Shown here: positions 831-41,241 of the stretch, one piece after another | Layout of the letters: each line of letters opens with the position of its first letter | How positions within the stretch are numbered: position 1 is the first letter of the stretch | Assembly (NCBI GenBank): GCA_002118135.1 | Contig: BDIU01000447.1 | Location: 1 to 56,240 of the forward strand | Reading direction: 5' to 3' | Origin: Trebouxia sp. TZW2008 | Taxonomy: Eukaryota > Chlorophyta > Trebouxiophyceae > Trebouxiales > Trebouxiaceae | Length of the DNA: 56,240 bases | Made by a program: the position numbers and the translations under genes | The notes under the pieces: generated by a model | The model's input: the letters and a program-made list of their open reading frames with translations, nothing else | Database searches by the model: none | Told to the model about the DNA's origin: nothing

Positions 831-3463
831 ATGGAAGGGTCAAAAGGGTGCAAATACTTCACGTCTTTGCCAGCCGCAACAGCTTGCAACAGTGCAATTG
901 ATACTTGGCATGCACGGCAAAACTGCATAGGATCTGAAAAAGTTCACATCAGCAAGCTCCCGACGCTGCTACCGACAACCGCAGATGCCGTTTTTGTCGT
1001 AACAGGCGGGGCCCGAGGCCTCGGACTGGAGCACGTTCGGCAGTTTTTGGAGAAGACGCAAGTGCAAGTCGTGGTGACTACGACCAAGAAGCCGGCATCG
1101 AATGCCAAAACCATCAGGGCGCTGGCGGAACAAGGCAAAGGACATCGACTAACCGTAGTCACGCTTGACCTAAGCGACGAGGCTAGCATCAAGGTGGCCT
1201 AAAGCTTTCGCAAACGAAAGCGATTTCAAAGTGATCCTGAAGGTTGCCAACGCTTTGCAGGCAGCTGCGGAGGAAATCAGCGAAGCGCACCCCACCGGCA
1301 TTGACATGCTGCTCAACAACGCTGGCATGCAGGAACCCATTACTCGAGCCTCAGAGACGTAAGCACTCCTTGTGACTGATATGAATCTGGTGGCGCGTGC
1401 CGTCGACCGAATCTTGAATCATGCTGTCCATTAGGATGCACCCCGTAGCCTGTCTTTGCACTGTTGATCAGCTTGTGTTAGTACTGCTGACAGTGTTACA
1501 GATGCATGCAGTGAGGGCAATGAGTATGCCCATGTGTTGAAGACCAATGTTGTTGGTCCCTACCTGACAGCAAAACATCTGCTGCCATCGCTGATGAAGA
1601 AGAAGACCAGGGTCATTGTCAACATCTCCTCCCTCTATGATTCCATCAATGCAAAGCATGATGACAATGAGGGACATCACAACCCAACAGGAAGCGTGCT
1701 TCTGGCGTCAAACACCAGCAAGGCTGCTTTGAACATGCGTAAGCTATGATACTATCTGCTCATGCCTCTGAGCATTCACTGCAGAGCTCACAAGTGCTTT
1801 CAAACTTTGCTTCATATCACTTAGTGCTATTTAGCATCATCGGGGCTCTGGTTGAGCTAGCTGTCCCTGAAGCCTCACTATGGCTGGTTGCCCTGCTTTT
1901 TCACGTCACCAACGGTCAGTTCAGCAGCAATCTCTGCCACGTGGATAGTCAGCAGTGTTGGCAAATGACCTCAAAAAGGTCATCTTCACTTTTGCGTCTC
2001 CACACACATTATCTTTGTGATGTCCGTTCACTTGAGTGATCTGACAGAGGATCACTGTTGTGTTTCTAAACACATGAAATCTATGCAATTGTTTCTTCAA
2101 TTGAGTAATCTGCTTTGATGCTGCAGAGTCAGCAGTGTTGACGGATGACCTCAAAAAAGGGCGGCGTCACTGTTGCGTCTCTAGACACATTATCTTTGCG
2201 ATGTTCGTTCACTTGAGGGACATGAAAGAGGATGATTTCACTGTTGTTCTAAACACATGACATCTATGTAAACACATGACATCTATGCAACTGTTTCTTC
2301 AGTTGAGTAGCAGGCTTTGATGCTGCAGAGTCAGCAGTACTGGCAAATGACCTCAGAAAGGATGGCTTCCCTGTTGCGTTTCTAGACACATGTTCTTGGT
2401 GATGGCCGTTCACTTGAGTGACCTGAGAGAGGATGGTTTCACTGTTGTGATTGTAAACACATGACAGCTATGCAATGTAGTTTTAAATGAGTAGCAGGTT
2501 TTGCTGCTGCAGAGTCAGCAGTGTTGGCAAATGACCTGAGAGAAGATAGATTCACTGTTGTGTCTCTAGACACAGGCTGGGTCAGGACAGAAACAGGGAA
2601 CACCACAGAGGTTTTGGGCAAGTCCCCGCCCTTGGATGTGCTCACAAGTGTGGCAGGTGCTCTCCATCATCTTCTCAGAAGTTTTTTTTTTCTGCCCACT
2701 TTTATCTATAATAAGTACCAAAACCAATAACACCAGTCATTATTACACTTTCTAGCATACAGTACTAGGTGTGTGTGTGGGGCACAAGTCCGGTCTCGCC
2801 AAACCAGGCAGGTATTGCCCAAATTCAACAGCACAGGCCTTGTAGACAGGCTAGTTCTGCTTGTTTGATGCCATTTTGGTGCCTGCAAGCAGGCCGTGTG
2901 TTCACGTCTGATGCTGTTTATTCTCCCGGGCTGCCTCTTTAGACAGAGGCTCCCGTTATGACGGCTAACGGCGTGGACTTTTTCTTTTCTTTTCTGTTTA
3001 TTCAAACGCCAGCATGCACAGCGTTAAGGCAGACACTGTTGTACATGCTCCGCAGCAACCAGTTTGCTTGCATGGCATACACATAAGACGCGCAGACAGG
3101 ATCATGGTGTGACTGTAACTGCTCACAAAAACGTGGTGACGCGCAACAATGTACAATTTTTGTGGAGAAAAGCAGCGTTGTCTGGCTGCAGGTCAGCAGA
3201 AGGTGATTATGGCACTAACGCCGCAGCATACAGGCAAATATTTGAATTGGGACGGCAAAGCGCCAAAGGAACATCCAGCTTCTCATGCATTTGCAAGTGC
3301 ATCAGCCAATGCTCATAAACCTGCCAGGATTACAGACATCTACAGGCGCCAATTTCAGCGCAGACTCAGACTCCCTTTGTCTTGCACAGCCCGCCATGCA
3401 CACGTCCCACATCTATGCCCTGGACTCCACAGCTCATGCAGGTCACTGTTGAAAGCCTTATGA
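831..3463 (+). CDS. Short-chain dehydrogenase/reductase, C-factor-like, catalytic Tyr replaced by Ser
   Basis: Five exons: 831-1193, 1243-1358, 1512-1738, 2513-2656, 3192-3463 (about 373 residues). The classical SDR fold is visible in order: the NAD(P)-binding motif VVTGGARGLG (residues 57-66), D-L-S-D after beta-4, NNAG (146-149), and the active-site strand VNISS near 196-200. The spliced tail includes LDTGWVRTETG and HTGKYLNWDGKAP, matching the C-factor-like SDR subfamily, whose tails end close to a YDG/WDG motif. The usual YxxSK becomes S-N-T-S-K (residues 226-230), so the proton-donating Tyr is Ser and activity is doubtful. An N-terminal extension of about 50 residues may be a targeting peptide. 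Intron 1 is only 49 nt. It could instead be exon carrying a frameshift, but the spliced length fits the family better. The last 40 residues are uncertain. Confidence 0.85.
1935..2400 (+). repeat. Three upstream echoes of dehydrogenase exon 4
   Basis: Intron 3 carries three degraded copies of the start of exon 4, each keeping the string GTCAGCAGT near 1948, 2128 and 2330. The intact exon has it at 2514, so the period is about 180-200 bp. The 2120 and 2322 copies also keep the CTGCAG acceptor. Frames are broken after roughly 15 codons. Confidence 0.85.
2928..2994. repeat. Dispersed short repeat, copy 1
   Basis: Shares the core CTGCCTCT-tAGACAGAGGCTCC and a following pyrimidine-rich TTTTCTTTTC tail with 30092-30159, and a more diverged version lies at 3844-3903. 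Copy 1 is inside dehydrogenase intron 4. It may be a SINE-like or MITE-like element; the family is unknown. Confidence 0.55.
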
Positions 3464-4813
3464 GGCACAAGGCGTATCTTGTACTGGATATTAGCCCTTT
3501 ACCCCTTCAGGGTACCAGCCTTGGTAAGGGGTATAGGGGAGTACCCCTTGCCAAAATCCCTTTCTGGGTACCACTCCAGATCTTTCATGACAGCCTCGGG
3601 CAGACACAACTACCTGGCTGTGCTATGCATCTCTGCTGCCTGTGTGTTTTGACATACTGATACAGTTCAGTATACTGACGCCGCTTGCTGTCCATATGCT
3701 GTTCCAGAATCACATTGGCTTTGGGAACATAGAATACAGAAAAGGGATAGGCAACAAGGCACGAGTAGCTGTACCTTGGAGTACCAATCTAATTGTCCCT
3801 AGGGCCTCTTCAGAGGCTTCCTGCTTTATAAGAGCAGTGTCAGGACGCTTTAGTCTATCTGAGGCTTCCTTGACATGCCTTACGGCATAGACATTTTCTT
3901 TTTAGGAGGTATGCATTCATTCTAGCCCACCTGGCTTCATATTGCATCGTGTTCTGGCAAGATCGGCACTTGATCACAGTGTCACAGTGTTGGTCATAGC
4001 TGCGAGTGTTTCAGGCTGCATATGTCTTTTAACTAAAATGCAACAGCAGTGCATGAAATGCATCACTGGAAGGGCTGCAGCTCCTTTTTTTGTTACATAC
4101 CAAAATGTACTCAAGCTGTAAACTCTGTACTCTGTGCGGAGTGTGCGGCTTAGGCATCAGCTTAGATGTGAGTTGTGTCACAGATACTCTCATGCCCAAG
4201 TGACCTCTGAGTCTCAAAGTGCGCTCAAGCCACAGCTTCCAAGAAATTTTGGGGTCAATGTAGGCAGCATTGACAAGATCAGATGTAAACAGAAAACGGG
4301 GCTGTTCAGTTACAGTCATTCGCGTTCGACATGGCTCAGACTGATTGCAGCCTGCACCTCGCTGGCAGCAACATGGATAACATTCTTGCTTTGCTGGCTC
4401 AATGCGCCACTTGACTATGAGCAGGCCACTACGTTACAACACTGCATCAGTCGCTTCATGACATGGTCTCTGGCAGTGCCGACAAGCAAGTCTTATCAGC
4501 AAGCCCCTGCTTGTAAATTGTCAGATAAACCACCCAATGAAATTGCATAGCCACAGCGTTCAGCAGAATCAAGGGCCTATATTACAAGTTTGCCATTCAA
4601 TGCAATTTGCTGAAACCCTATGAAAGCTGCAACCTTGCATTGTTGATGCTGGAAGCGTCCCAACAGATCATACTGTTTCTCCTGATCTTCCGAAGGAAGT
4701 TCCTGGCAGGCGGCGTTGACTCTGTTCTGTACAGATTCTCCTAAAATTTACACACAAGGGATCTGGTGATAATATCTGATGGCCTGGACCTTTCATTTCT
4801 TCCTTTCAGTGCG
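3464..4813. other. Convergent intergenic region
   Basis: Lies between the 3' ends of the dehydrogenase (+) and the DUF1995 gene (-). It holds the diverged dispersed repeat and a small inverted repeat (TACCCCTT at 3500, AAGGGGTA at 3526). A TGTAA, the poly(A) signal used by green algae, lies on the minus strand at 4752-4748, about 62 nt past the DUF1995 stop. Open frames here resemble no family I know. Confidence 0.4.
3844..3903. repeat. Dispersed short repeat, diverged copy 2
   Basis: Contains TCTGAGGCTTCC, a CCTTACGGCATAGAC segment and a terminal TTTTCTTTTT tract in the same order as the copies at 2928 and 30092. More divergent than those two. Confidence 0.4.
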
Positions 4814-7800
4814 TTATAGCTTTGCCCACCAGGGCTTGTCAGAGTCGGTGTCTGCTGGCTTGTTTTTGAAGCAATCGCTAAGCCGCTGGCCTGACGGCTC
4901 TGAATCAAAGGTACCCACCAGGTCAAACCGCTCCTCTTTCTTGCCCAGGTCAAACCGCCGCCACACCTACAGACAGGCAATGCCAATTGCCAAAACAAGC
5001 AATGCAGTCGCAGTGCAATGCTGTTCAACCATTCAAGTTCCCACAAAGTGGCAGTCAATGCAACTGAGTGAGTGACAATAGGTGTTTTGCGCCAAATGCA
5101 GGGAATGCCAGGCAAACAGACAACAAAATCGCTTCAGACTGAAGCAGCAACACGGCAGCTTGCGATTTTCACCTCTTCAGGCTTGCTGCAGCTGTGGCGC
5201 ATGTTTGCATTGACTTTTGATGCTAGATGCAGCAGTGCTTGTAGACAATCAACGAAAGCGAAGCTTAGGACTCGAAAAGCCCATGACTGCAGGGCTGACC
5301 TCCCAGGCTTGGCCATATATTGACAGTCACACTTAGGCAGAACCAACAGAGAAGATGCGCAAAACAAAGGAGTCAACACCACTGCAAAGAGCGTCATGAC
5401 AGATTTCAAACAGCAAAATTGCAGCTGTATGGCTGACCTCCCAGGGTTTGCCATAGCTATGTCGCATGGCGCCCATGATGGGGTACATGAGCTGCGTGGA
5501 CATATACAGCAGCCGGAAGTGGTACGCCTGTACAAAGCTGTCTGCCAGCGCCATCCTCTCTTCCCTCCCCCTACACACCACACAAGTTTGTTAAACAGGG
5601 TATGGGTAGGCTTACATTCTACGTAGACAGAAGTTGTACGCCTGTATAAATCTGTCTGCCAACGCCATCGGCCTCCTCTCTGCCCCTGGGATACACACAG
5701 AACATATTTGTTACAGACATGACAGGCAGAGTTACAGGCTCACTGGTCAGCTTGCATGACTCTGTCTGCAAGCGGCATCCTCCCCTCTCTGCACCTCTTA
5801 TATACATATGATGGGCTTGCATACAGATTCATAATCGATACACGCAACCCTTGTGTGCTCGAAACCGGTGGAGACACGCCAGAGAGCACAGTGCTTGCTG
5901 TTGCTGAGGTTTCATGAGCACAAAGCCGGTTTGAATGCTGGCATGTCAAGAACAAAAGAGTTTGGGGGAGGCAACAAGCGAAGTCAAGGAACAGCAAGAA
6001 AGGGGACAAGCTCAGCAGGCAAAGAAGAGGATGGGGCGTGCCTGACTCCCATGACGCCTGCTGCAGAGGGGATGTCCTTCAGTGCAGGGTTCATCAGAAT
6101 GACTGCCTTCGATTGCCGCTCTGCTTCTTCCACCTGCAACATCACATATCATTCATTCACTTGAGTAAGTAAACTGACCAATATGTATCTATGAAACAAT
6201 CACCGCCTTGAACTGCCGCTCTGCTTCTTCCACCTACACTACATTTCCAACTGAAGGACACTCAATATATAGACATTGCTGTGGTAAGGACAAATGCATT
6301 TGGCAACCAATACCGCTGGCTGCATGGCTACAATCAACCATGGACGCTTTGATGTGAGGACCCTTTTATTGACAACTAAGGCAGTCAGCACAGCACCAAG
6401 ACCAATCATGATACAATACATGCAGACATTGCTTGATGCCATGCTTCAAAAAGTCATGTGGGGGCAGCAGCAGCCTGTAGTATTTGCGATAGGCATGGCT
6501 TGATTTAAAAGCACGCCAATAACCACAATGCCGTCCAAAATACCCCGTGAGGCGGAAAATTTTGAGCCTCACTGAATTATCTGATGCAATCTGACATATG
6601 CATGCAGTATCTGAATGCTCTGAAGCGTACTGCTGTTACTGCTACCATTGACGCTGTAATTGGTGGGTATGCTTAAGAGGTGTTTCCTGATAAGCAAGCT
6701 TTGAGACAGTTTTCGCTACTCTGAGGAGTGCATACCATGTCTCCCAGATTGGTCAAGATAGTGTTTCCGGCAATGTTCTGTGGCGCAACCAGAATGTAGT
6801 AGGATGAGTCGTCAATCTGCTTAGGGCTGACTTCTCCAATGGAAACAAAGTCCCCGACATCGCCCCAGTCCATCATATTCATGATTTTCCTGACACCGGA
6901 CAATGACAATGGCAAGCCCTGCAGCATTGCAACATATTGTCTATAGCCCTACGTTTGAAGTGTGGAGGCTGTAGTTTCTGCTCATGATGCCTTGTATTGC
7001 TGAAAGATGACAGCAATTGCAGCTTTTAACACCTCTCCTGAGAAAGCCTAAAGATCTTCTTGAAGAAAGCCTTGTCCATGATGAGGGTCATGTCAGCAAG
7101 CAATGGTAGCCAAGGAGCCTTGCAGCATCATTGCATGTTGAGCGAATCTTCGACTCAAAACGTCGGTCTATTTTATTGTCCACTTAGAGGTCCTTTTGTT
7201 ACCTGAAATACCCCTTGGCCCATGGACTGCTGCACACACACTTTCACCTTCTTGCCGTCTTCTGCTAAGGCATAAGCCATTTCACGCACCATTTCCAACA
7301 GTGTTCCAATGCGGTACACATCCATCTCAGGGTTTGTCTCAGGTATGGTGCATCTGCAGAATTAGACAGCATGGACATATAGCCTGTACATGTGAGCATG
7401 ACAACAAGCGACAGGCATGCATGCACATCATCTGGGACAAGATAATGACAAGAGTTTCACCAAAAACACATACTTTGAACACTTAACAATTCAGGAAGTT
7501 CAAAACTTCACAATCTAGCGTGCATTCATGCACAGCATGCAAGACAAGGCCATGACAAGAATTTTGGCCAAAACACATGTCCTGATCAATTGACGATGAA
7601 TGAGCTGAAAGTAGCAGTCACAGGCTTTGTGGTTGGCAAGGTATCCTCACCAGACACTGCTGCTAGCAAAACGATCTTGCCAAAATTGAGCAGCGTCAAA
7701 ACAGCAAGAGCAACAACGCAACAGCTGACCTCAAGCTGATGCGGCTCTGACCATCAGCCAAAGCATCTCTCATAGCTTGAGTGGCCTCTTTGTAGTACCA

Positions 7801-11800: not shown

Positions 11801-14800
11801 CAGTCATGAGCGTGCCGCACCTGATTCCTGAAGCTCTTGCTGCAAAGATTTGTTGACACCTAGACAACAAAATACTTGCTGCAAGAAACGTCAATACCTA
11901 CAAAACCAGCAAGAATATGCGCATAAGGTCATGCAATGCTGATCTTGCAGTTCCCCTAGCTTGGGTGCAGAACAGAGTCAAAGGCACTTTGACAGTACAG
12001 CAGAACTTTGTTTGTTTGGTGCGCAAGCTCAGTATTGGCTGATGCTGACAGCAGGATGCAGGCTCAGTGCACTGAAATAGCACCATCAGCATGGCTGTAT
12101 ACCTGTGAAATCAATTAATCAATGGCTGTATGCCTGTCTTTCTGCGGGAAGCATGATACACCTGAGTCTTTCAGGGCTGCAAATTAAAGCTTGCATTGTC
12201 GACATGACAAGAAGGATTTTGTCATATTTCAAGACAAGTGCTAGGTGGCTGTGTGGTTCTGGGGCCTTAGGCGATGAAAGGCACTTAGTGTTTGAATGTG
12301 GAGCATTGGCTGGGGTGCGGGCCAAGTACCCTGGTTTGTTTGAGGGCTGCGGTTATCACATGTGCGCTTTTTTGAGCAACATGATCATTTGGGGGTGTTT
12401 CGCTATGTCATAGACTGCCTGAATGTCATGGACAAATAGTCATTGCCACAGTGTGGCACATGTGATCAGCCTTGTTGGCTGGCTAAAGCGTGTAAAATCA
12501 CTCTGTCTCTCTCTCTCTCTACGGGCATGCGGCGCACGTCACAACATCCTGCCAGCGACAACCTGAACGATGCAACCTTGCGTGACAACTCAGCAAGGCA
12601 AGCTGAAATTCTCATCAAATGGCTCTGCGCCTGACAGAACACCACAAGGTGTCTAGGAATCTGACCATGCTCATCATCCTGCTTGCTGGCGCTAGAGATC
12701 TGACCTGCTTGCTGGTGCTAGAGATCTGACAGTCAGTACAGTAATCTTTCTATGACGACTGAGGAAGTCACTAAGGAAGTCATCCTTGTGGCACATTGTC
12801 CTGAATGAGGGATACAATGAAAACGCAGTGATTGGTGTTGTCCTTACATGAGGAATGTTAGTCGACTATGATTGTCAGGGAAAGTTACTGTAGTTATGTT
12901 TGCAGGACAGCATTTAATGCGTGATCTCAGACAAATTTGCTTTTCAGTGCTACAGGATGGAGAACTCAATTATGGAAACTACCTGCAGGCCGCACTTCCA
13001 AGGCGATCTGGCTGCTTGTCAAGTGACTGCTTGAGAAGCTCAGCATTGGCGTTGTGCTTGCAGGACATGGATCTAAGGCTGTCTGAGAACATGACCAGCA
13101 TGCATTTGAACATGTTTCCCTGCAGAGATTGCTTCCCTGTGCAACAAAGCTGATACCTTATCCATGCTTGCTGACTGCAGGAGATCAATCCAAGGCGAAC
13201 TGACTGCTTTAGAAATGACTGCTCAGCAACTACAGCTGCAGAATATCACACAAGCCGCTTAGACAGCACTAGCAGCACAACAAGCTTTGGCAAGTTGTTC
13301 ACCAATTTTGACAGCTCAGCATGTGTGACGGCAGGAAATGGACACAAGGCACTCTGACAACATGACCAGCATGAATTTGAACATGTACCCCAGCACAGAG
13401 GGGCATGCGTTCCCTGAGGGGGCGCAGCGCATCTGGTCACATACAGACTATGAAGCCCTCACCCTCCTGTTCCAGCAACCAGGTAAAGTTTACCTTCCAC
13501 TAGTTTTTCACTGTACTTTCCCACTCACGACCTTCACATGTACTTCTGTTATGCTATGTCATGCAAAGCATGATTCATGTGGTGCATTGACTATGAAGCC
13601 CTCACCCTCCTCTTCCAGCAGCCAGGTACCTTGGGCTTTATGGAGTGATCACTTCAATTTGTTGTACATGACTTTGCTTTATTCCACTTTGGCTTTTTGT
13701 TTTCACTTTACTGCATTAGACCACGGCGTTCAGATGAACATCCAATATACCGACTCAGTTGTCTCTTGCTCTCATACCAGTTATGAAGCTCTCACCCTCC
13801 TCTTCCAACAGCCAGGTACCTTCTACTTCACTTTGATTTCATTCACTGCACTTTTTTTAACTTTACTTTCTGTTGCTTGACAGCGTGAGTTTGTGGCTTT
13901 TGCATGGGCTTTGATTATACCTGACTGATTGTCTCTTGCTCTGACTCTGACGACCATGTCCTGACCCTCCTCTTCCAACAGCCAGGTAGCCTTTCCTGAC
14001 TTACGACTCCAACACGTGCTTCAGGCATGCCAATTGTGGTGGTCTTCTTCTTGACATTGGACACTGATGCAAACCCAGCTCCTATAGTTCTCCCCATGAA
14101 GCCCTGACCCTCCTGTTACAACAGCCAGATTCCCTGTGTTTCACTTTGATTTCATTCTGCTGCACATGATTGCATTTCACTTCTGTTGCTGTTCTGGGTC
14201 ATGGCTTTCACATGGGCTTCAAGTATACCAAGTTGATTGCGTCTCGCTCTCACTCTAATGATAAAATCCTGACTTGTCTTCCAACAGCCAGGTACCCTTT
14301 ACCTGAGTTGCCTTCTCTGTACCTGTTGACTAACAACTCGGACGATGCAAAAACTGCAAAAGTTGAAGTCTGCTTTGTGTACTATAAGTGACTATGAGTG
14401 CCTCACCCTTCTATGGTCTGGTTGCCGTCCTTGATTGAGGAGCTAGGTAGATAAGACTGTCAGGTCAGCTGAGGCTTCGCACTCACTGCCAGTCAGACTG
14501 GCTTGGAGACTTGCCAATCGACAGGCGCAGGTGCAGCTGAGGCTTTGCACACACTGCCAGTCACACTGGCTTTGACCAAGGCATTGCAAGCACTGCTGGT
14601 CAGACTCTCAGGTGAGCTGGCGTTTTGCATGCGCTCCAGGTCAGACTGGATTAGAGATGTGTTCACGCCTTGCAAGAGGCAAGCAGCGAAGCAGCTGGGA
14701 CTTGACGGTCACTCAAGGCCAGACTGTTAATTTCAGGGCTGACAAGTAGTTGACGTTTTGCATGCACTGCAGATCAGACTGGCTTAGAAGTTTGCTCAGG

Positions 14801-21294: not shown

Positions 21295-21361
<67 letters not shown>

Positions 21362-29910: not shown

Positions 29911-30659
29911 TCATGTAGGTAGAGGCTTCAATGTGTTAGTAGCTGGGTGAAAATGTGCAGCCATGCAGCCAGGGTCCAGGAAGAATGATAACTTGCGACA
30001 GCCTGTAGCTGTACTATCTGCTGGTGTATGAAGGCAGCGTGTGCTCTCTGGTGCAGCAAACAAAGCTGACAAGGTATTTGCAGTCAAAATCTGGGCTGCC
30101 TCTGTAGACAGAGGCTCCTGTCATGGCGCCTTACAGCATACACATTTTTTCTTTTCTTTAAAAGAAAATGCTTTTGCCGTCCAGGCAGGTGGGTGAAGTG
30201 AAGTAAGATTGAAGTTCGAATTATTAAGCTACACCCAGTAGTATCCATGCCGGGATGCATATGGCTTCTGCAAATGCTACCCAACGTGACAAAAGTGTAT
30301 ATGGGGTGCCTGTAGTAAAAATTGCATGCATGTGTAGCCTTATGGGTACATTGGTATTGGGCTACTGTCAAGCATTGGGAGAAGTTGATTGTTCTGCTTG
30401 CCATGTGCATGTCACGCTTGAAAACCCCAGAAGCTGTAGGCGTAACAATGCAAGCTGCAGTAATGAAAGCTGCAGTAATACTTCCGATCGGAGGTGAAAA
30501 GTTTGCTGCAATTGTTTGGGTGTTCACACCTTTGACTGTGACACAAGCTGGGTTTACATTCCCATAAGATGCAAGTGTACCTCCTTCATGCGAGATCATC
30601 ATCTGCATGTCGCGCTTGCTCCTAATGCGTTGGACTGTGCAACAGACAGAGGCCAGAAC
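29911..30659. other. Intergenic or unresolved 3' part of the small minus-strand gene
   Basis: A single long minus-strand frame crosses this stretch, but its composition weakens after the first exon and it runs through the dispersed repeat. A short duplicated motif (CAAGCGYGACATGCASATG, near 30602 and 30415) may be a further echo. Exons downstream of 30660 were not resolved. Confidence 0.35.
30092..30159. repeat. Dispersed short repeat, copy 3
   Basis: Matches the copy at 2928-2994 over the CTGCCTCT-tAGACAGAGGCTCC core and the TTTTCTTTTCTTT tail, with a variable 20-base middle. It is in the intergenic region between the membrane protein and the small gene at 30764. Confidence 0.6.
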
Positions 30660-30764: not shown

Positions 30765-30893
30765 CCCTAGCTAGCAACCGCTCTGTGTTCACGGCTCGCA
30801 CCCCTTGCTCAGACACAGCTTGCCACCGATGCCGCATCAGTCATGACCTGTATGTAGCAGCTTCGCATCGGCCGCATGTAGTCTCTGTGCGGC
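30765..30893. promoter_or_regulatory. Compact bidirectional promoter
   Basis: Only 129 bp separate the ATG of the small minus gene (30764) from the ATG of the WD40 gene (30894). Both 5' UTRs and promoters must overlap here or extend into the genes. No specific motif is claimed. Confidence 0.4.
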
Positions 30894-33800
30894 ATGCCAG
30901 GTCTGAAGGCGTCAGAGTTCGAGGACGCCACAGCAGAGTTTAATCATGTCAGCACGATCAAACTTCAGCTTAGCAGCTCACGCTTGAGACTGGGAGAGCT
31001 CAAGCCAGGCTTTGCACAAGGCGTGAAGAAGATACACACCCCCAAGCTATCAGCCATATATTTCCTTGCAGAGCAGCGGCGCCTGTATGCTGGCATTGAC
31101 TCTGGCGAGCTACGCCTGTGGGACTTCAGTGCTCCAGCCAGGAGACAGGCATGGTTGTTGATAGGGGTACACAAGGGCAGCATAAGCACAGTCTGTGCCC
31201 CCAAAGCCAGCTCCAAGATAGATGCTGCAGCTGGACTTGTCCTCACAGGGTCAGCAGACGCCAGCATCAAAGTGTGGGACGTCAAGCTACAGGTGCAGGA
31301 GACGCATGTATGTGTGCAGACACTCGTTGGTCACACAGGCACCGTCACAGCTCTTGTTCACAAAAGCAGCTGCATCCTCAGCAGCAGCACAGACTGCACA
31401 ATCAGGATTTGGAAAGCTGTGGAGGGACGCAGCATGATGGCGTACCCTTGGTTTGAGCCCCATGTAAGCACCAGCTCCCCTAACAAGGCAGAACTGCATG
31501 GTGAAGCATGTTCTCTCTGCACGCATACTCCCATCTATGCACCCTCCCATACCTGCGTACTCCCAGCTAGGCATTCCCCCATCTACACAATGCCAATTGT
31601 ACTAAGCTGATCTCAGGGCCGCTTTGTCTTCAGACGTATAGCGCAACGGTCTTATTTGACGCAGCAAAGCACAGCTCAGTCCCGTGAGTAACTGTAACAG
31701 GCAGCAAGTTGTCCCCCAAACTAGCAAGCTGCACCAAGTGGCAAGTGCAATGTGTTACCATCAAGAGCCGCTTTTGCTAAAGTAACATATTGTGCTAATC
31801 TCAAGTCTGACTCTGTAAAAAAAGTGCAAGCTGCAAGCTTCTCAGAAGAATTGTGCAAACATGGTCGTCTGCAGAGCCAAGCGGCAATTGCAGAGCCTAT
31901 CAACATTCAGTCCTGCTAAACATAAACTTTTGTGTGGACCTCATGGTTTGCAGGACAAATGCAAGCTACAAGATGTCCTCGCCTAGCAGGCTCATAGAAC
32001 CTCCTTAAAGCATGCAAATGATGATTTTGAGCAAGCATGGCCACCTGCAGGCAGTTGTTCTGAAGATGGCGGGCTGGGTGACCAGCATGAGCTTTGAGGC
32101 CTCAAACCGGGTTGGCGACTTTGGCACCCTGTACGCAACAGATGCTGCAGCTGCCATCGTCAAGATCAACCCCTGCATTGTTGACGGACCAAACGTTTGG
32201 AAGGAGAACAGCCAAGTCCAATGGCAGCTGACAGGCACTGTCAAAGACGCCAAGCTGAACTTTCTCCTGGCCTTCAGGTGCGTATGTGTAACAATAATCA
32301 TTACACCTTCCAGCAAACGTGCTAGGCGTTTTGGCCCCAAGTCCTATATGTATGTACATTAATGGGTAATGCAGTCAAAAACATTGCAGTTGGCATTTTG
32401 GTGCGGTACCAATCAACTGCTATGAGCGGTACTGAGATTTGTACTGTCTGGCATAACTCAATGCCGCCAGCCTCGCAATATTTGCAGCAAGATACACTGT
32501 GTTGGAAGTTCAAAAGGCATTGTGATCACTGTTAGTATTCAACATTGATGTTAGGTTGCAGACGGCTACAGACAGATCATGAACAGCTGCAGTTAGCTTA
32601 CTGACAGATCTGAATGGCGGCATGCAACTTTCAACACGCTGGATAGCAGACTAGCAAGCACCAACTGCATGCCCATGAAGCAAGATCAGCGTGACTGTGG
32701 GTGTCTTGCTTTGGCGATTTTTATGGCACAACTGAAGTACATGCCACAGATGCAGCAGTTGTGTCCTCAGGGCAATGCAAACCAAATGCTGTGTACCTGA
32801 CAAAGATGACGGATAGGTTCAGAGAATAGTGTGAGCAGCATGTGATGAAATTGGCATCACCTCCTTGCTTTGATTGAGCTGGAGCCGTCCTTGTTTGCAA
32901 TGCAATGTGGGCAGCAGGTGTACCTCACCCTGTTTCTTTGCACCATGAAGCAAGCCTGTTTTGAGCGAAGTCACCTCCTTTCTGAGCTCAAGATAGTAAA
33001 TGCTGCGGGATTTGCTGCAGTCAAATGCATGATGAGACTAGCTGTATCTCATAAGCACTTGCCAAGCAGTTTGAGATTGACTGTTACAGGGTGACATTGG
33101 CAGCACACGATGCAGCTGATATTCCCCTTTCCGCCCTGCGCATCTTCAATGATGTGCACTGTTTGAGGTGAGCTTGACTAGTGGCAAGCTGATTGCGGCA
33201 TGCTGCAGCTTGGGGCATGACAGGACCATGAGTCGTGTCCAGTGTTTAGCACAGGAGGGCCTAATTGCCACAACGGCCCTTGACAACACCCTGCGCATCT
33301 TCAATGCTGCGCTCCAGAGTATGCCCTGATGTAGCTGAGCAGTACTGATGGTAGCTTTGTTGTGGCATGTGCTGCAGTTGGGTGCATGGCAGGACCATCA
33401 GTCATGTCAAGTCTCTCCTAGAGGAAGGCCTGATTGCTACACTGGCCCTTGACAACACCCTGCGCATCTTCAATGCTGTAGAAGGCGCTTTGCGCTGACT
33501 TGGCTGAGCTTTACTGACAGCATATTTGCTGTGGCATGCAGTCGGGTGCATGACAGAACCATCAGTCATGTGAAGTATCTGCCAGAGGAGGGCCTGATTG
33601 CCACACTGGCCTTTGACAACACCCTGCGCATCTTCAATGCTGTGCAAGGCACCCTGCGCTGCACAGCTTTGAACGAGACTGGAGGCCCCTTTACAGGCAT
33701 GGAGCATGATGCTGAAAGGTCACAGGTCAGACATATTTGCCCTTTCTAGAAACAATCTTACAATTTGTATGTGATTAGTTCCATTGCATGAGGTCTGATT

Positions 33801-36800
33801 GCTGGTGTGAATGTCACCTTAGGCTTTCAGCGGCATGTTTCATGATGCTGAGATGTCACACATTCTAGTCAGCAGCTACTGACGTGCATGCTTGGTGCCT
33901 ATGCTGGGAGTCGATCAGTTGCTGCGTTGCGTTGAGTCTGACCTTTGCTGTGGATGAGACTGTAGGCCCCGTCACAAGCATGGACCATGATGCTAAAAAG
34001 TCACAGGTCAGACCGCCTTGCTCTTGTCAGCAGCTTGCGCCATGCTTACGCCGTGGTTGGTGCAAACTCAGCAAGCTATGCTGGGAGATGATTAGATCAT
34101 TACTCTGAGTCTGCTGCTGCTGTGAATGACACTGGAGGCCCTCTCATGGGCATTAAGCATAATGCAGATAGATCATAGGTCAGACATATTTGCCCAGTCT
34201 AGAAGCAACCTAGTTTGTGTATGGTCACTTCCATTGCATGAGGTCTCCTTGCTGGTGGAAATTTCACCACGGGCTTTCACTGGCATGACTTATGATGCTG
34301 AGGGATCACAGGTCAGATTTCTATGCCCTTGTCAGCAGCTACTGACAAGCATGCTGGGAGTTGGTCAGTTGCTGCATTGCGTTGAGTCAGAGTTTTGCTG
34401 CACACGAGACTGGAGGCTTCCTCACGAGCATGGAGCATGATATTAATAGATCACATTTCAGACATCATTACTCATGTCCAGCAGTTGCTGCAGTGATACA
34501 GTGCCAGGGTTTAGGTTAGCTCAGGACCAAACTGGTTGGAGACGGTTGCTTGCTCCAGTACGTACCTAGCTGGGCCCGCTGAGCCTGTCTAGCACACGTT
34601 TAGAACGAAGTGACCAGTGAGTACAGTGTCTGTGAGTCAGAATGGCAAGTCACAGTTGCATACAGGCAGTCCTTTCCCCTCCACACTATCTGCTTTGACC
34701 AATGTGAAGTCTGATCTCAAACAAGAAATACAGATGCTGTCAGGCTGCAATCTGCAATGCAGCCTGCCTCATGCATCAACACGCATGTTGCATCATTACA
34801 GCAGGACAGTGGCTGCATGTGTTTTCTCACATTTGCTGCTCGCTGTTGCAGCTGCTGTTGATTGACAAGCACCATCTGCACGTGTGGGCTCTCACCCATG
34901 GCCGCTACATAGCTGAAGAGCGCACCAACCAGCAGCCCTTGCTTGCCATCTTCAAAGCTGGTGTTGCTGATGCTGACTTGAGACGTATGTCACTGCAGCT
35001 GCTGTTGATTGACAAGAACCATCTGCACGTGTGGGATCTCGCGCATGATCGCTTTATAGCGAGGGAGCGCATCAGTCAGCAACCCCTGCTAGCCATCTTT
35101 AAAGCCAGTGGCAGAGGCGAATTTGGTGTGGTGTCTCCTTCTGCAGTGGACATCTGGCGAGTAGACCAGGACTTGGACTACAGAGTTGTGTTGGGTGGTC
35201 ACACAGGCCCTCTCATTGCCGTGCATACTGTCAAGGGCGAACTGGTAGGCCTTGCTCAATCATGCAGAGATTGGTTTAGTTTGCTTGCATGCACACACAA
35301 GTTTATTCGAGTATGTTGTCAAGACGAGCCTTGAATTTCTGCTTTGTCATCTAAATCAAAACAATACGCCACTGAACCACAATGCGACTCCAAAGACGAC
35401 TCAGACTGCATGCAGTTTAGTTTTCTCAGAGCAGTAATTGAGGACAGGCACTCACCTTGATAGTGTTGGCAGGGCAGAATACTAGCACATCCTTTAAATT
35501 CTGGCAGTCGTCGTCAGTATCCAGAGCAAAGACTTTCTGAAACTGAATGCTAGACTTGGTCCAACCATACGCGTTTGATACTTGTCTGACATGAGCTGCG
35601 ACAAATCAAGCAATTTACACATACAGACAGGATGAATCACACGTCACACATTAGTCATCTTTTAGATGTGTTGTGACTTGCGAGGTTTTGTGCCCTGGCA
35701 GGGTAACAATGGCAATGAGGACTATAGAACTGTGAGCGCTGGGCAGGACAACACTGTGCACATATGGGACCCATATGACATGACTTGCCTAAAAGCCTTT
35801 AGAAGAATGTGCTGACAACTGACACATGACTCAAGGCTGTTGTCTCCTTGTTGCAGCTCCTTGTTGTGAGGTTGTCTGAATGCTTTTTGTCCTGGCAGGG
35901 CGAGCATGGCAGTGACGACTTCAGGATTGTGAGCGCTGGGCAGGACAACACAGTGCAAATTTGGGACCAATATGACATGAACTGCCTGAAAGCCTTGAAT
36001 ACTGCGTTTTGCAGCTGATGTATCACTAAAGGCAATTTTGAGCAAGTCAACTAGACACGGCTTGTATGGCAGGGTGAGAATGGCAGTGAGGACTACAGAA
36101 TTGGGAGCGCTGGGCAGGACAGCACTGCGCGCATGTGGGACCCATGTGACATGACCTGCCCAACAGCCCTTTGCAATCTGGCTTGCAGCTGTTGCCCTAC
36201 CGAAAATCTTTTTGAGGAAGTCCTTTAGTTTTATCTTATATGGCAGGGTGAGAACGGCAGTGAGGACTACAGAATCGTGAGCGCTGGGCAGGACAACACC
36301 GTGCGCATGTGGGACCCGTATGACATGACCTGCCTGAAAGCCTTGAAGGAGGAGCGCTCAGAGCTGACTGCCCTCACTTTCTTTGCTGCTGGAAACACTC
36401 CAATCACTGGTATGCAGTCTGCCTGCTTGCATCAACTCAGCTTGTTGGCTGCTGAGCGCAGCACCATCACAATCATGCAGCCTGTTTGCTTCTCTGTTGC
36501 CCTGCATCATGCGTACACAGCGACGCCAAGAGGCGTTTGACCACAAATGTTGCAGACTGGCACAACGGTTGGCCTTTGGGCCTACAGAAATCCCAATGCA
36601 TGTCTGATGCAGGTCATGAACATGGCAGCATTGAGCCTTGGAGTTGAGACACGGCTCAACAGTCAAGCTTTCAAGGTTTTAAAGCTAAATGCAGGTCATG
36701 ATGACGGCAGCATTCGGCTTTGGAACTTGGAGACTGGCACCACAGTGGACCTGGCACAGCACACCAATACGGTCACCTGCCTTGTCATGGCGCCTGTGTC

Positions 36801-39800
36801 TACTGTGGATGAGCTGCTCTTCAGTGCAGGTCAGACACCATTCTGATCTTGTGTTTGCCAATTGATGTTTTTGAAGCTGTTTCTGAAGGTGTTTCTAAAG
36901 CTACAGGGTCTGTAGTCAGAGGATCATGAGAGCTGTAAGCTACCTTTCTCAGGGTACATGTTGAAATGGAGATGGCATCGTGATTGAACCTTCCTGTCTT
37001 GTAATCTACAGCAGAAGTGCTGCTGTCAGCAGTTTGGTGCAACCAAAAGTTGTGACGTCAAAGGTGCTTGGTGAAACGTCTGGTGATCTTCTAGATGTAG
37101 AAGAAGAGTGCATTCTTCAACAGTGTAACTGTGTGGCCTGCAAGCCGCATGGACTTTCTGCTACCATTGCAAAAAAGTGTCTGTTTGCGGACCCGTATAA
37201 TCTGCGTAGACCAATGGGACAGCATAATTCTGCTGTGAAAGAAGATCAGCCAGGTCCTGGTAGCATTCTGAAGATGATGGGCTCTCTGGAAAAAGGTCAT
37301 TTGTCTGTTTGCTCAATATGGTATGTAGAAACCTTACAATTATACAAAGAAAGGGTCAACAGCCGTCCTACACTCTTTTGAATTGAGGCAAGAGTGGTTC
37401 AAGCTGTGCTTGCAAGTAGTCGCACAGCAGGTGGCACCGGGAAGCACCTTAGCAATGCCTTTTCAGATTGGCTGTGGGCTTGCTGGAGGTGACTGGAAAG
37501 TGTACAACCACAGCTTGACTGAGTGGGCTGCAAACTACCCAACTCTGCACCTGACAGTGTAAAGAGAAGTAGCAACCACAAGTTGAAACACACAAACTTA
37601 TATCCAATCTTGCTTTACCAACAAACAGCCTGAGAGTCCACCTAGGGTGGCAAGAAACGGCCCAAGAGCGCGCCTGCTAGTCTAGCAATAATAGATTTGC
37701 TGTCTGGATCGATACTGAGCAAAATTACAAAAACAAGAATAACAAATCTCATATCCAATTTGGCGTTTGAACGTTCAGCAGTAGTGTCTATTTCGGTTCT
37801 CAATTGATCAGCAGTTGTGTCCATCTTAGTGTTCAGAGCTTTCATCTCTGTCGTCAGCTATGTACACACAACTCGATGACTCAAAAGGGAAAAGGCAAAA
37901 AAGTACTTTCTGCCAAATAGGGGGCCCTTTCAGGTTGGCCTCACCTTTGGTGAAGCCATCGCGTCGCGATTCCTCACTCAATAGAGCAGAAGACTTGATA
38001 CCTGATGTAGTCAGCTGCTGTCCTCATCACTGCTTGTCTCAAGTTGTTCAAATCTGCAAGAGCTTTGTTTAATGCTATTACCAACTCACTCTTGCAAACT
38101 TGTGTTTTAATTCGACGGAAAGGTATTTTGCGCTCATCAAGAAATAATTTCCTCTTTGCTCGTCCTTTTTAATATTTCTAATCACCATCAAATCTTCTTG
38201 GAAAACGGCTTTAGCTGGCACAAGCTATCTGCATGCTCATCAGTTGCTGTCTGCTGTTTGTCTGGCCCTGCTGATGCTACATCTGTAGCCAATAGCAACC
38301 TGGCGGACATCATTGTTTCATCAGATGCAAGCAGTTCCCAGAAGACTATCAAGGCAAAGCCAAAACAACTTGCGTCTCAGGCCACTCTGCGTGAAGTGCA
38401 TGTCTGGTCTGTCACAGAGTTTGACGGACATGTGTGTGTTGGGGACGTCAGGCCACCGTGTGTCAATTGCGTGTCTGTCATTTCAGAGTGCTGCATGGCC
38501 ACGTGCATGTTTTGGGCATTGGATCAGTCTGTGTCAAGTGCGTGTCTGTCATGTCACAGGATTCGATGGCCATATCTGTTTTGGGGACGTCCGGCCACTC
38601 TGCATCAAGTGCGTGCCTGCTGTGTCAGAGTGTTACATGAACCTGTGCATGTTTGGGACCCTCAGGTTACTCTGTGTCAAGTGTGTATCTGTGATGTTAT
38701 AGGTTTTGATGGCCATGTGTGTGTGTGGGACGTCAGGAACGGTGCATCCACAACTCCACATCTCATGCACCGCTGGCAGGCACATGCCGGCTTGGAGATC
38801 CTCACCATGCTACATGACCCCATGAAGAATGTGCTGGTCACAGCTGGCAACGACAACATCATCAATGTAAGCAGTTGTGGACTGCTTCCCCTCACAAGGG
38901 CTCCAGCTATGACGCTTGATGGCCTGTGCTTTTCATTACTTCTGTGCTGTAAGCACTGCTCACTGCACACCATTCTGCATGGACCCATGAAAGATGTGCT
39001 GGTCACAGCTGGCAGAGACCACACCATCAACGTAAGCAGTGCTTACTGCAGATTGTGCTGTATGACCCATAAAGTGAGTCGTGGTCACTGCTGGCAATGG
39101 CAACATCATCAGCGTAAGCCATGCTTATTGACGCCATGCTGGAAATCTTGTGAACATTGTGCTTTTCTCTGCGGGCAATGACAACACCATCAAGGTAAGC
39201 CATGCTTACTGCACACCATACTGCACGACCTACTAGCATGTGCAGGCCACAGCTAGCAACGACAACACCATCAATGTAAGCCACGCTGAATAAACACCAT
39301 GCTGCATGACCCGATGAAGGATGTGCTGGTCACTGCTGGCAATGACAACAATATCAACGTAAGTCATGCTTACTTCACGCTTGCCCTTCTTGCATGGGCA
39401 TATCGATGCTTGCCATGGCTGCTGATGTCTTTCAGTGTATCAATGAGTATAAGTCATACTCTCGTATGACTCTAAGACTGTGCAGCAAGGACGGCGGAAA
39501 ACTTGAGGCATGGCTGGGAGCTCAGGGAGATATCTTCCCTGTGCATAGTGCTGCATGCAAGTGTATGATGACGTGCAGAGGCTGTCAAAGTCCAGCTGTA
39601 TGAGCATCTTGGGAGGCACAAAGGCCCAGTCACATGCCTTTCCCTGGACAGCAACCCCAGCCAAACGCTTTGCCTGAAGGTTGCTACAGATGTAGAGCGC
39701 CCTGCCCCAGCCTGCTACCTCACCACTGACTCAAATCCTGCATGCGAGTACAGGTGTGGAGTGCTAGGCTTATGATCATCTGCAAAGGCACAAGGGGCCT

Positions 39801-41241
39801 GAACGCCCTTTTAGCCTGCCTTGCTGTGGACAGCAACCCTGACCAAGATCACCTCATGGCCTTCAGAGTCGCTACCAGTGTTATGTGCCCTCTCAGGCTG
39901 TAAGTCTAGGACTGACAACAAGCCTGATTGTGACTACAGGTATGGAGTGCTAGGCTGTATGAGCATCTGGGGAAGCACCAGGGGCATGAAAGTCCAATCA
40001 CCTGCCTTGCGCTGGACGGCAACTTCCTGGTGTCTGGCAGTGAGGACTGCACTGTGCGCCTGTGGGACCTGGTGCCTGCCTCAAGGTTGCGTCCCCGCTC
40101 TTCCCCTCTTCCGAAGTCTACCAAGACTGTCGGACTACCTGGCTGATTGACTGACTGCTTGGTTGTTTGACTGGTTACATTGTCTGCAGGACAATGATTG
40201 ATTGAGGGCGTGACTGCTTGCTTGCTGACTTCATTGATTGTGATAGTGTTCCTGCTGTGCTTTTCCACCACCTCAATTGTGTACACGTACAAATCCGCAC
40301 TTCCCTGCAAAGTCTCCACACATCAAATTCAAGCGGACACTTATAGTTTTGTCATACAGGGATGGTGATCCACGTGGTCTGGCGCCCTTTCAGGGCAGTG
40401 GGTTGTTGAAGACCCTCAAGGGGCACAAGGCACCCCTGAGGGGGGTGGTGGTTCTGCCTGACATTGGTCATGTGGCTTCAGCCTCATCTGATGGCACCTT
40501 GTTACTGTGGGATTACTCTCAGGGCACTATTTTGCGTACATTTCACCATGCAGAGGAGGTCAGCTGCATTGCATGCAGGTAAGATCTTGCAGCAGTACTC
40601 CTGCACTGTGTCTGATGATTGAAGAGTGATAGCTGGCTGACTGTCTCATGAGGATAGAGCAACTTGCCTGTCAGCTTGACGAATCTGTTTCTGTAAGCTG
40701 AGCATGCATGCCCATGCTGTTGCATATTGTATGAGGGGAGAGTAACTGCACAAGTATGCTGCCTGCTGCCAATGTGCTCATTTCTACAGTGCGGCATTCT
40801 GCACAGAACAATGTCGACAAATACTGTCAGATACCAAGCCATGTGCATTCACCTGTTTGGGTCTTGCAGTGACCAGCAGCCCATTGATACAGCAAACACA
40901 GTGCACTCCCATCTGCGTGCTGAATGATAACAGTTGAAGCCTGTTATGTCCACCAGAAGCAAATGGTCTTTTGCAAACATGGTCTGATGTATGAAAGTTG
41001 CACACAAATGCAGATTAGCAAGCAAAGTGTGGCCTGCTGCGGCCAGCATGGCTATGATATGAGCTGCATCAATAGCGGCAGCTAAGTGCATTGATGAAGC
41101 TTACATGTATTGCTGCTGTGCAGGCATGACACTAGTGAGGTCTTGGTGGGCACAATGCAGAACAGTATTTTGCGCTTTCCTGTTGATTTGGAAGAAGCCA
41201 CAGACGAAGCAATGCAGCAGGCTGGGCAACTGTATCAGTAG
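30894..41241 (+). CDS. WD40-repeat protein, 11 exons
   Basis: Exons: 30894-31463, 31634-31683, 32032-32277, 33542-33725, 34999-35244, 36247-36409, 36695-36829, 38703-38866, 39940-40085, 40360-40578, 41124-41241 (746 residues; every junction keeps phase). At least ten WD-type blade ends can be read: LRLWDF, IKVWDV, IRIWKA, LHVWDL, VDIWRV, VRMWDP, IRLWNL, VCVWDV, VRLWDL, LLLWDY. Gly-His dipeptides precede several blades. This is enough for two seven-bladed propellers or one large one. WD40 proteins are scaffolds; no catalytic or extra domain was seen, and I could not assign an orthologue. Exons 4 to 9 each have upstream and/or downstream echoes in neighbouring introns. Intron 7 (36830-38702) holds a nested coiled-coil relic. 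Confidence 0.87.
33100..33505 (+). repeat. Upstream echoes of WD40 exon 4
   Basis: Three copies near 33110-33175, 33208-33325 and 33373-33500 repeat the exon start: a TGCAGTTGGGTGCATGRCAG-like block, then segments that read LIATLALDNTLRIFNAV in the best one. Period about 165 bp. The real exon starts at 33542. Confidence 0.88.
33940..34460 (+). repeat. Downstream echoes of WD40 exon 4
   Basis: Four copies of the exon end (real: ETGGPFTGMEHDAERSQ then GTCAG) occur at about 33950-34005, 34120-34178, 34258-34313 and 34398-34457. Three keep the GTCAGA donor. Spacing is about 140-170 bp. Confidence 0.9.
34858..34990 (+). repeat. Upstream echo of WD40 exon 5
   Basis: After GTTGCAG the copy reads LLLIDKHHLHVWALTHGRY, continuing ERTNQQPLLAIFKA, still open in frame. 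The real exon at 34999 reads LLLIDKNHLHVWDLAHDRF. This is an in-frame, high-identity copy and could act as an alternative exon. Confidence 0.88.
35700..36170 (+). repeat. Three upstream echoes of WD40 exon 6
   Basis: Copies start after TGGCAG at about 35701, 35900 and 36072; the real exon is at 36247 (period about 170-200 bp). All three stay open through a full WD blade: RTVSAGQDNTVHIWDPYDM, RIVSAGQDNTVQIWDQYDM and RIGSAGQDSTARMWDPCDM. They end before the exon's donor. Because the frames are intact they are candidates for alternative blade exons. Confidence 0.92.
36543..36660 (+). repeat. Upstream echoes of WD40 exon 7
   Basis: One copy at 36613 repeats GCAGGTCATGAACATGGCAG for the exon start GCAGGTCATGATGACGGCAG at 36691. 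A second fragment (36552-36590) resembles the internal ETGTTVGLW segment. Confidence 0.75.
36980..37381 (+). other. Open frame of unknown origin in WD40 intron 7
   Basis: A 133-codon frame (no ATG required at splice level) with Cys-rich CNCVACKPHG and a basic segment. It is not needed by the WD40 protein, since exons 7 and 8 join cleanly as LFSAGFDGHVCVW. It may be part of inserted DNA that also brought the nested coiled-coil segment. No family recognised. Confidence 0.3.
37642..38150 (-). pseudogene. Nested coiled-coil, tail-anchored protein relic in WD40 intron 7
   Basis: On the minus strand, 38150-37985 reads a basic-to-helical segment (KRKLFLDERKIPFRRI, then ELVIALNKALADLNNLRQAV). A frame change near 37985 leads to SSALLSEESRRDGFTK and a donor at about 37948. 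After an ACAG acceptor the last exon (37847-37642) reads MKALNTKMDTTADQLRTEI, a Lys/Asp/Glu coiled coil, then a hydrophobic segment RFVILVFVILLSI and a short tail to a TAG. Base composition is visibly more A+T-rich than neighbouring exons. The layout (coiled coil plus C-terminal membrane helix) resembles DUF1640-type proteins, and a full DUF1640 gene lies just downstream at 41838. The frame break suggests a decayed copy; a short unseen intron is the alternative. Confidence 0.45.
38395..38640 (+). repeat. Upstream echoes of WD40 exon 8
   Basis: Two or three copies of the exon start (real: GFDGHVCVWDV after TTATAG at 38702) are seen. One, near 38412, reads EFDGHVCVGDV; another, near 38560, reads GFDGHICFGDV in one frame. 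Each is followed by a run-on repeat with GTCAAGTGCGTGTCTGTC. Confidence 0.82.
38975..39362 (+). repeat. Downstream echoes of WD40 exon 8
   Basis: Five copies of the exon end (real: VLVTAGNDNIIN then GTAAGC at 38867) finish at about 39031, 39113, 39196, 39277 and 39360. All five keep a GTAAG donor. Unit length is about 80-85 bp after the first, shorter than elsewhere. Confidence 0.93.
39580..39870 (+). repeat. Upstream echoes of WD40 exon 9
   Basis: Two copies of the exon start (real: VWSARLYEHLGKHQGHESP after CTACAG at 39939). One, near 39592, reads LYEHLGRHKGPVTCLSLDS; the other, after GTACAG near 39753, repeats GTGTGGAGTGCTAGGCTTA. Period about 170-185 bp. Confidence 0.87.

Follow-up and report, generated by a model that had tools for sequence, protein, structure and literature searches.

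Tandem arrays of truncated exon-edge copies in predicted introns of the green alga Trebouxia sp. TZW2008

The contig and its genes

Contig BDIU01000447.1 of the green alga Trebouxia sp. TZW2008 (assembly GCA_002118135.1; 68.5 Mb in 527 contigs) is 56,240 bases long and is treated here, in its entirety, as a single window. Many of the predicted introns of its genes contain tandem, worn copies of the edges of neighboring exons, and these copies are the subject of this work. The base composition of the window is 0.47-0.53 G+C per 2-kb block. Another member of the genus, Trebouxia A48, has a genome of 69.1 Mb, whose nuclear contigs were kept at 48-50% G+C (PMC12712428).

Proteins read from the gene models match the Pfam families WD40, DUF1995, OSCP1, PPR, and short-chain dehydrogenase; a dioxygenase gene is assigned from homologues. 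The OSCP1 and DUF1995 genes lie on the minus strand, and the dehydrogenase, dioxygenase, PPR, and WD40 genes lie on the plus strand. The nearest named proteins are those of Trebouxia sp. C0004, with 64% identity over about half of the query for the dioxygenase and 74% identity over 96% for the WD40 protein.

Comparison of the window with itself by blastn (E<1e-4) yields 72 pairs. In 70 of them, the two members are direct repeats separated by less than 1.25 kb, and the remaining two pairs, one direct and one inverted, are widely spaced. Within the gene spans, there are 21 repeat clusters: 18 composed of an exon edge and its intron copies, 2 exon-exon, and 1 intron-only. A first-pass annotation of this DNA had described exon-edge copies in at least five genes on both strands, a description with which the self-comparison, Pfam matches, homologues, and clusters all agree. 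It had also placed arrays in DUF1995, where copies are indeed present, but as single pairs. The copies are as follows (window coordinates; upstream and downstream in gene sense; genome search, a search of the whole assembly):

1916-2512, plus: four upstream copies (5' array) of the first part of dehydrogenase exon 2513-2656; self-blastn; exon-edge cluster 1916-2574; offsets -113, -184, -386, -566; genome search, own locus only
5630-5713, minus: 5' edge copy, upstream, of DUF1995 exon 5438-5570; pair 5516-5593 / 5630-5713, 76%; exon-edge cluster; Pfam DUF1995
6198-6238, minus: 5' edge copy, upstream, of DUF1995 exon 6042-6133; pair 6098-6138 / 6198-6238, 85%; exon-edge cluster
13037-13128, plus: first-part copy of dioxygenase exon 13335-13482; self-blastn, cluster; ortholog P0001 residues 156-174 against 13064-13120, weak (E 0.1)
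13589-14309, plus: 3' array of the last part and donor region of dioxygenase exon 13335-13482, four scored copies; cluster; ortholog P0001 matches at 13589, 13770, and weakly 13940; genome search, own locus only
14461-15055, plus: 5' array of the first part of dioxygenase exon 15076-15269; offsets -168, -303, -436; ortholog matches at 14775, 14923, and weakly 14636
15562-15815, plus: 3' array of the last part of dioxygenase exon 15076-15269; self-blastn, cluster; ortholog matches at 15580, 15695
16115-16230, plus: first-part copy of the dioxygenase exon starting at 16269, offset 149; 93% over 116; ortholog match 16120-16191
20244-20968, plus: 5' array of the first part of PPR exon 20970-21172, four scored copies, each with a TGCAG acceptor; offsets -141, -328, -498, -682; alignment; genome search, own locus only
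21212-22403, plus: 3' array of the last part of PPR exon 20970-21172, seven copies; copy scoring, alignment, cluster
22797-22885, plus: 5' edge copy of the PPR exon starting at 22923; pair 79.8%; exon-edge cluster
25449-25679, minus: 5' edge copies, upstream, of OSCP1-gene exon 25222-25351; self-blastn, cluster
26262-26560, minus: 3' array, downstream, of the last part of OSCP1-gene exon 26561-26775, four copies; cluster 26262-26630
33134-33541, plus: 5' array of the first part of WD40 exon 33542-33725, two copies; ortholog P0121 residues 269-304 and 266-305
33899-34488, plus: 3' array of the last part of WD40 exon 33542-33725; weak ortholog matches at 33911, 34125, 34400; genome search, own locus only
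34847-34958, plus: first-part copy of WD40 exon 34999-35244, in frame (offset 147); self-blastn; exon-exon with our own models, exon-edge only with ortholog-defined exons
35687-36246, plus: 5' array of the first part of WD40 exon 36247-36409, three copies; self-blastn; ortholog matches at 35702, 35899 (P0121), and 36073 (P0123)
38376-38702, plus: 5' array of the first part of WD40 exon 38703-38866; self-blastn; ortholog-defined exons
38948-39380, plus: 3' array of the last part and donor of WD40 exon 38703-38866, five copies; offsets +165, +247, +328, +409, +492; genome search, own locus only
39595-39936, plus: 5' array of the first part of WD40 exon 39937-40086; self-blastn, ortholog-defined exons; weak ortholog matches

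The WD40 exon at 33542-33725 shows how a protein from another Trebouxia detects the copies. The ortholog (P0121 of Trebouxia C0004) places this exon at 33531-33728, corresponding to residues 263-328. Upstream, the copies at 33216 (E 9e-7) and 33376 (E 5e-10) are also matched, by its residues 269-304 and 266-305, respectively; downstream, parts of segment 303-328 give weak matches to the copies at 33911, 34125, and 34400 (E 0.1-0.5).

Two details of individual arrays can be added. In the PPR 3' array, an AATC microsatellite of about 20 units (21295-21373) directly follows the donor of one copy. In the dioxygenase gene, the copy at 14757-14840 encodes 22 residues at 95% identity to the Trebouxia C0004 protein, and exon 15076-15269 is 91% identical to it over 65 residues. 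The differences between this copy and the exon are mostly synonymous (3 nonsynonymous against 10); it belongs to the tail of a homogeneous distribution.

Exon-edge copies beyond the window

The sample consists of the window plus 240 kb (six 40-kb pieces from six other contigs), or 296 kb of the 68.5 Mb in seven regions. Genes were predicted by a small splice-aware hidden Markov model gene finder, trained on the window and the six pieces using sequence only. It returned 31 gene models with 479 introns (median length 309 bp) and the splice consensus TGCAG/G for acceptors and CAG/GT for donors. Under the trained donor model, C is the second base in 13% of predicted introns, reflecting either frequent GC donors or model error. 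Because the copies mislead the gene finder, 46 of 510 exons that resemble a longer neighboring exon were taken out, as were exons of less than 25 nt, leaving 415 exons and 384 introns. Repeat pairs with low trinucleotide diversity or with offsets below 35 or above 1500 were left out, and introns longer than 3000 or 3500 bp, as well as short ones, were left out of the exon-window profile, the copy collection, and the flank test.

Exon-edge clusters are present in seven of seven regions, with 10 to 18 per region. In the cleaned models (exons of at least 120 nt), 5' edges match the upstream intron in 47 of 237 cases and the downstream intron in 0 of 214 (Fisher 9e-15); 3' edges match the downstream intron in 30 of 228 cases and the upstream intron in 4 of 216 (Fisher 4e-6). 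In the uncleaned models, 60-base 5' edges give 52/352 upstream and 7/332 downstream (1 and 1 in a reverse-complement control), and 3' edges give 36/352 downstream and 15/329 upstream (control, 2 and 0). When only the regions outside the window are considered, again uncleaned, the values are 41/291 vs 5/273 for 5' edges and 27/290 vs 13/272 for 3' edges, with 1 and 2 control matches on the expected sides.

A total of 201 copies were collected at 104 of the 704 exon borders examined. Nearly all (188; 106 acceptor and 82 donor) extend to within 8 nt of the splice junction, and the 13 that are short of the junction were left out of the analysis. An exact AG is found in 88 of the 106 acceptor copies, and a GT or GC in 64 of the 82 donor copies. 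Exon windows are copied at 16.7% at the acceptor edge and 11.1% at the donor edge vs at most 2.6% beyond 150 nt into the exon. The junction-to-junction spacing has a median of 152 bp with an interquartile range of 124-176 (n=188), matching the 110-200 bp given by the first-pass annotation. Copies occur in 88 of 384 introns and in 21 of 31 gene models, and 21 exons have both 5' and 3' arrays (odds ratio 7.2, p=7e-8). On the acceptor side, the similarity extends into the intron, above unrelated background. The identity of a copy to its real exon edge has a median of 0.78, and a single copy of the 188 reaches 0.97 or more. Partial copies in the window are also detected with orthologous proteins, which are independent of the gene models; several of these matches are strong and several weak.

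Together, these results indicate that the intron copies of exon edges are real and extend beyond the window. Repeated duplication of border-spanning segments, as originally proposed, is supported on both strands and in every sampled region; the term genome-wide, as used in that proposal, extends here to these 296 kb.

Polarity, geometry, and exon anchoring

The polarity of the copies, singled out beforehand as a rule, stands in the edge test, but not as a special feature, since simulations of random duplication reproduce it. In the simulations, random duplications of 60-420 bp, centered on 150, fall on real exons with resampled introns; those altering the coding sequence are rejected, and the rest then decay. 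One example gives 5' edge matches in 30 of 240 upstream and 0 of 214 downstream introns. When a tandem duplication crosses one border, only one of the two copies remains connected to the rest of the exon; this one stays real, and thus, the truncated copy comes to lie on the intron side. Judged by these simulations, polarity is mostly geometry.

The abundance of exon-edge copies is not reproduced in this way. The sample contains 90 exon-edge, 11 intron-only, and 14 exon-exon clusters. The ratio of exon-edge to intron-only clusters is 8.2 vs 0.42-0.82 in eight cluster-level simulations, and at the level of pairs it is 97:41 (2.37) vs 0.30-0.77 in fifteen. Part of this excess is a matter of visibility, as the intron half of a copy decays past recognition sooner, chiefly on the donor side. 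Repetition of the 120-nt intron flank is detectable at 28 of 98 copy-bearing borders and at 6 of the 400 that lack copies. With intron-only and border-crossing duplications equally frequent, about 20 of 400 would be expected; by our arithmetic, therefore, an approximately threefold exon excess is left after correction for the faster decay of introns. With ortholog-defined exons in the WD40 and dioxygenase genes, there are 11 exon-edge clusters vs 1 intron-only cluster; the excess is not a product of gene-model error. Local direct repeats are present in 2.4% of intergenic windows vs 16.0% in introns. Duplication is probably anchored at exons, beyond what geometry gives.

The competing idea of uniform duplication holds that tandem duplications of about 150 bp occur everywhere and are then sorted by selection, the exon-edge cases being special only because the real exon is conserved and intron copies decay twice as fast. 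The simulations built on this idea do give both the polarity and the profile of repeats across intron windows, and the intron parts of copies do decay faster. However, no run of either kind reached the observed ratios, repeated flanks at borders without copies are fewer than it predicts, and intergenic DNA, in a small sample, is repeat-poor. Uniform duplication is therefore unlikely.

A breakpoint at the exon center, as at a nucleosome dyad, was also considered, given the correlation between the length of the copied exon part and exon length (rho 0.62 and 0.38). It was dropped: the exon part is limited by exon length and spacing, local alignments over-extend, and the relative breakpoint position shows no preference for the center.

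Array expansion and intron length

Introns with copies have a median length of 633 bp vs 346 for those without, and introns with exon-edge copies make up 33% of the intron bases in the sample. The suggestion that introns grow outward from their exons is weakly supported. The nearest copy is closer in sequence to the real exon than the farthest copy in 29 arrays, less close in 17, and tied in 2, a gradient of outward growth that is weak at best. In some arrays, expansion seems to have proceeded from copy to copy; the PPR array, with a higher-order period of 354 bp, is one example.

Such features bear on a second alternative, in which the first duplication is random and arrays then persist or expand by unequal exchange or conversion wherever a constrained exon keeps the copies similar. 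The exon would then be a recombination anchor rather than a mutation hotspot. Multi-copy border arrays are common (47 of 90 clusters have at least 2 pairs), and both the 354-bp periodicity and the lack of a strong age gradient are in keeping with this scheme. In addition, acceptor copy pairs, selected for similar introns, have exon and intron identities of 0.832 and 0.874 (n=23), as if they had been copied mutually. On the other hand, 43 of the 90 exon-edge clusters are single pairs, and the copy number of intron-only clusters is similar (median 2 vs 2.5). Copies in the PPR 5' array share third-position states that are absent from the real exon, and thus, there has been no recent conversion by the real exon. 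Turnover of this kind is quite unlikely to have produced the arrays.

Decay, coding pattern, and splice sites of the copies

Judged from their sequences, the copies look like near-neutral relics rather than used exons. Changes private to the copies are spread nearly evenly across the three codon positions (176/152/203), unlike changes private to the real exon (22/12/44). (Copies of exons lacking a stored phase were left out of these counts, of the donor-site identity, and of the ratios by identity class.) A frameshift within the first 45 nt is present in 37 of 188 copies. Over whole ungapped extensions (148 copies, those with fewer than 10 ungapped codons being left out), the nonsynonymous share of the differences is 0.52 and homogeneous, with 0 of 134 copies at p<0.01; the share expected for a dead copy of a constrained exon is, by our own reckoning, about 0.6. 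The spacing of copies falls into all three reading frames (55/70/63). Among exon-exon duplications, 7 of 9 are multiples of 3, as expected if duplications within exons survive only in frame. Complete exon copies number 0 of 188 by ungapped extension, where complete copies of equal length may have been retained as exons during cleaning and hence missed, and nearly complete copies number 13 of 187 by gapped alignment.

Introns were predicted by the first-pass annotation to fill with splice-site look-alikes, and this is what is found. When measured against the real sites, 51 of the 106 copied acceptors and 33 of the 82 copied donors equal or exceed the lower-quartile score. The real site of an array is equaled or outscored by one of its own copies in 21 of 59 arrays on the acceptor side and 15 of 41 on the donor side. 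No purging of these decoys is seen: the real-to-copy identity of the acceptor AG (0.90 and 0.89) is no lower than that of the exon part, and that of the donor T is 0.74, a slight loss at most.

The copies might instead be functional, as alternative or mutually exclusive exon edges under selection. Their splice motifs are well kept, a few, such as 14757-14840, differ from the exon mostly at synonymous sites, and there is a stop deficit and a mild third-position excess (both quantified below). However, the synonymous-biased copies are the tail of a homogeneous distribution, and the frameshifts and the lack of spacing by reading frame do not fit selection for coding. Furthermore, when the copies are left out of the PPR protein of the window, two of its relatives of about 500 residues, P0241 (68%) and P0242 (64%), align with it over 100% and 98% of its length. 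A functional role is very improbable. (P0241 and P0242 are on 2.2-kb contigs, probably transcripts of a related alga.)

Protein-level conservation had been considered because the top-identity class has low nonsynonymous/synonymous ratios, 0.14 (acceptor) and 0.28 (donor). This effect, which might have indicated functional copies or exchange between diverged haplotypes, is gone when whole ungapped extensions are used and represents selection of the tail.

Mobile elements, such as the introners found chiefly in lineages that evolve comparatively fast, green algae among them (PMC9860276), and assembly artefacts deserve almost no credence: 5 of 5 arrays returned at their own locus only in a whole-genome search that scores best candidates only and skips very common words, which limits how far "local only" can be taken; the same type of search found, as a positive control, a dispersed window element of about 130 bp at 40 or more other places; and copies with a median identity of 0.78 to the exon edge, one of them at 0.97 or more, are therefore not duplicated reads or assembly duplicates.

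The dispersed element, SINE-like (short interspersed nuclear element) in size, lies at 24905-25005 and, inverted, at 34508-34608. Its 40 or more other places, at 81-89% identity, are on many contigs, and 1406 candidates were seen at first look. A distant direct repeat (2928-2992 / 30093-30159; 82%, 67 bp) contains a GCCTCT...AGAGGC inverted motif and has a T-rich stretch after it; the repeat may mark one end of a mobile element.

A proposed mechanism

The explanation that we favor, and consider probable, is that exon-anchored tandem duplications of about 150 bp have occurred recurrently and left worn, truncated edge copies in predicted introns. The copies probably survive because a duplication over a single border would not alter the coding sequence. 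A unit would be laid down in one piece, from inside the exon, over the splice site, and into the intron. Selection would continue to act on whichever copy remains attached to the remainder of the exon, and the other copy would turn into intron. Duplications within exons would be removed unless in frame. Each event would lengthen the intron by about one unit and add one decoy splice site. The splicing machinery would ignore the copies, most having no partner splice site of the kind needed for exon definition. As to the origin of the duplications, a guess would be breaks or template switches on the scale of nucleosomes or Okazaki fragments, occurring preferentially in exonic DNA. A unit may be about one nucleosome long.

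More tentatively, intron growth in this algal lineage might have its mutational source in the exons themselves. In this broader version, which is possible but which we hold with less than even confidence, nucleosome-sized tandem duplications nucleate in exonic DNA, those that do not cross a border are purged, and introns grow outward as decaying decoy arrays.

Several results weigh against anchored duplication. Repeats are no commoner in intron windows near exons than in those deep within introns, a profile like that of the uniform simulation, and a permutation on the uncleaned models gives only mild enrichment. When only exons of a length not divisible by 3 are used (249 of 415), a filter that also discards real exons, the ratio drops to 73:36, although it is still above the simulations. 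The 11 border pairs with at least 88% identity align over a median of 0.35 of the unit vs about 1.0 for simulated pairs; therefore, either the intron half decays faster than the model allows or some duplications left it out. Among all 277 local pairs before thinning, the gap between the two members is no more than 20% of the offset in 87. Even between copies, there is barely any alignment of the intron parts on the donor side. The 13 nearly whole-exon copies indicate that truncation is not absolute, and the age gradient is weak. Copy-private changes have a mild third-position excess (p=0.02). Stops number 19 vs about 40 expected, an expectation that is too high because it is based on total divergence; this deficit may indicate slight constraint, or that some copies arose recently. 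Intergenic DNA is represented by a small sample of 1046 windows, and the search behind the local-only result has the limits given above. Finally, the gene models were made without RNA, and some fuse adjacent genes (e.g., the dioxygenase and PPR genes), so gene counts are rough.

Significance

The selective advantage of maintaining long introns remains unknown, as noted in a Chlamydomonas comparison (PMC8226300). The arrays make a local growth process for long algal introns testable, given that copy-bearing introns hold a third of the intron bases and are nearly twice as long as others. They are also a natural test of splice-site choice: a copy often scores as well as the real site, and thus, motif strength alone cannot choose the right one. 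Gene finders may be misled as well, since 46 of 510 called exons look like copies. Through anchored duplication, genes would become longer and acquire look-alike splice sites while their proteins are unchanged. If exons are indeed the mutational source, introns would have a genome-wide means of lengthening that differs from transposons and introners, and the spliceosome would have to ignore arrays of decaying decoys.

Comparison with known systems

In the literature searched, no report was found of exon-edge arrays in Trebouxia or other green algae, nor of border-crossing duplication on this exon-anchored and iterated scale. Parts of the process have precedents. In the AGGT model (Hellsten 2011, as described in PMC3443670), duplication of an exonic AGGT segment creates a new intron; as here, a short tandem duplication within a gene is tolerated since splicing hides it. 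Under that model, a copied edge would sit at the far intron end. AGGT-type gain was rejected for the present arrays, where a copy junction lies within 12 nt of the far intron end in 0 of 106 acceptor and 1 of 82 donor copies, and existing introns are lengthened. (Polarity alone has no power to separate AGGT-type gain from border-crossing duplication.)

Introners, as described in PMC9860276, likewise produce intron sequence on a genome scale, in green algae too, but they are transposable and dispersed, unlike the five searched arrays, which were found at their own locus only. Core-Reinhardtinia green algae also have many long introns, with no short-intron peak (PMC8226300); a duplication mechanism is not among the points taken here from that work.

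Internal gene duplications are termed commonly observed in PMC4974935, which cites Gao and Lynch. As cited there and in PMC3443670, the duplications of Gao and Lynch resemble the present ones in being frequent, short, within genes, and able to affect splice structure. These citations concern new introns and duplicated coding segments and leave exon-edge arrays and exon anchoring unmentioned.

The closest precedent is the potato RdRp gene, in which a tandem duplication over one intron-exon border created a new spliced intron (PMC4974935). As in Trebouxia, the potato duplication, by that account, crosses one border, and it carries a branch site, tract, and 3' splice site. The potato case involves one gene and a new spliced intron, whereas here there are iterated arrays in 21 of 31 gene models, at donor as well as acceptor borders, inside existing predicted introns. 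Thus, single border-crossing duplications are known; what apparently sets the Trebouxia arrays apart is that they are iterated, involve both types of border, are found in two thirds of the gene models, and are anchored at exons.

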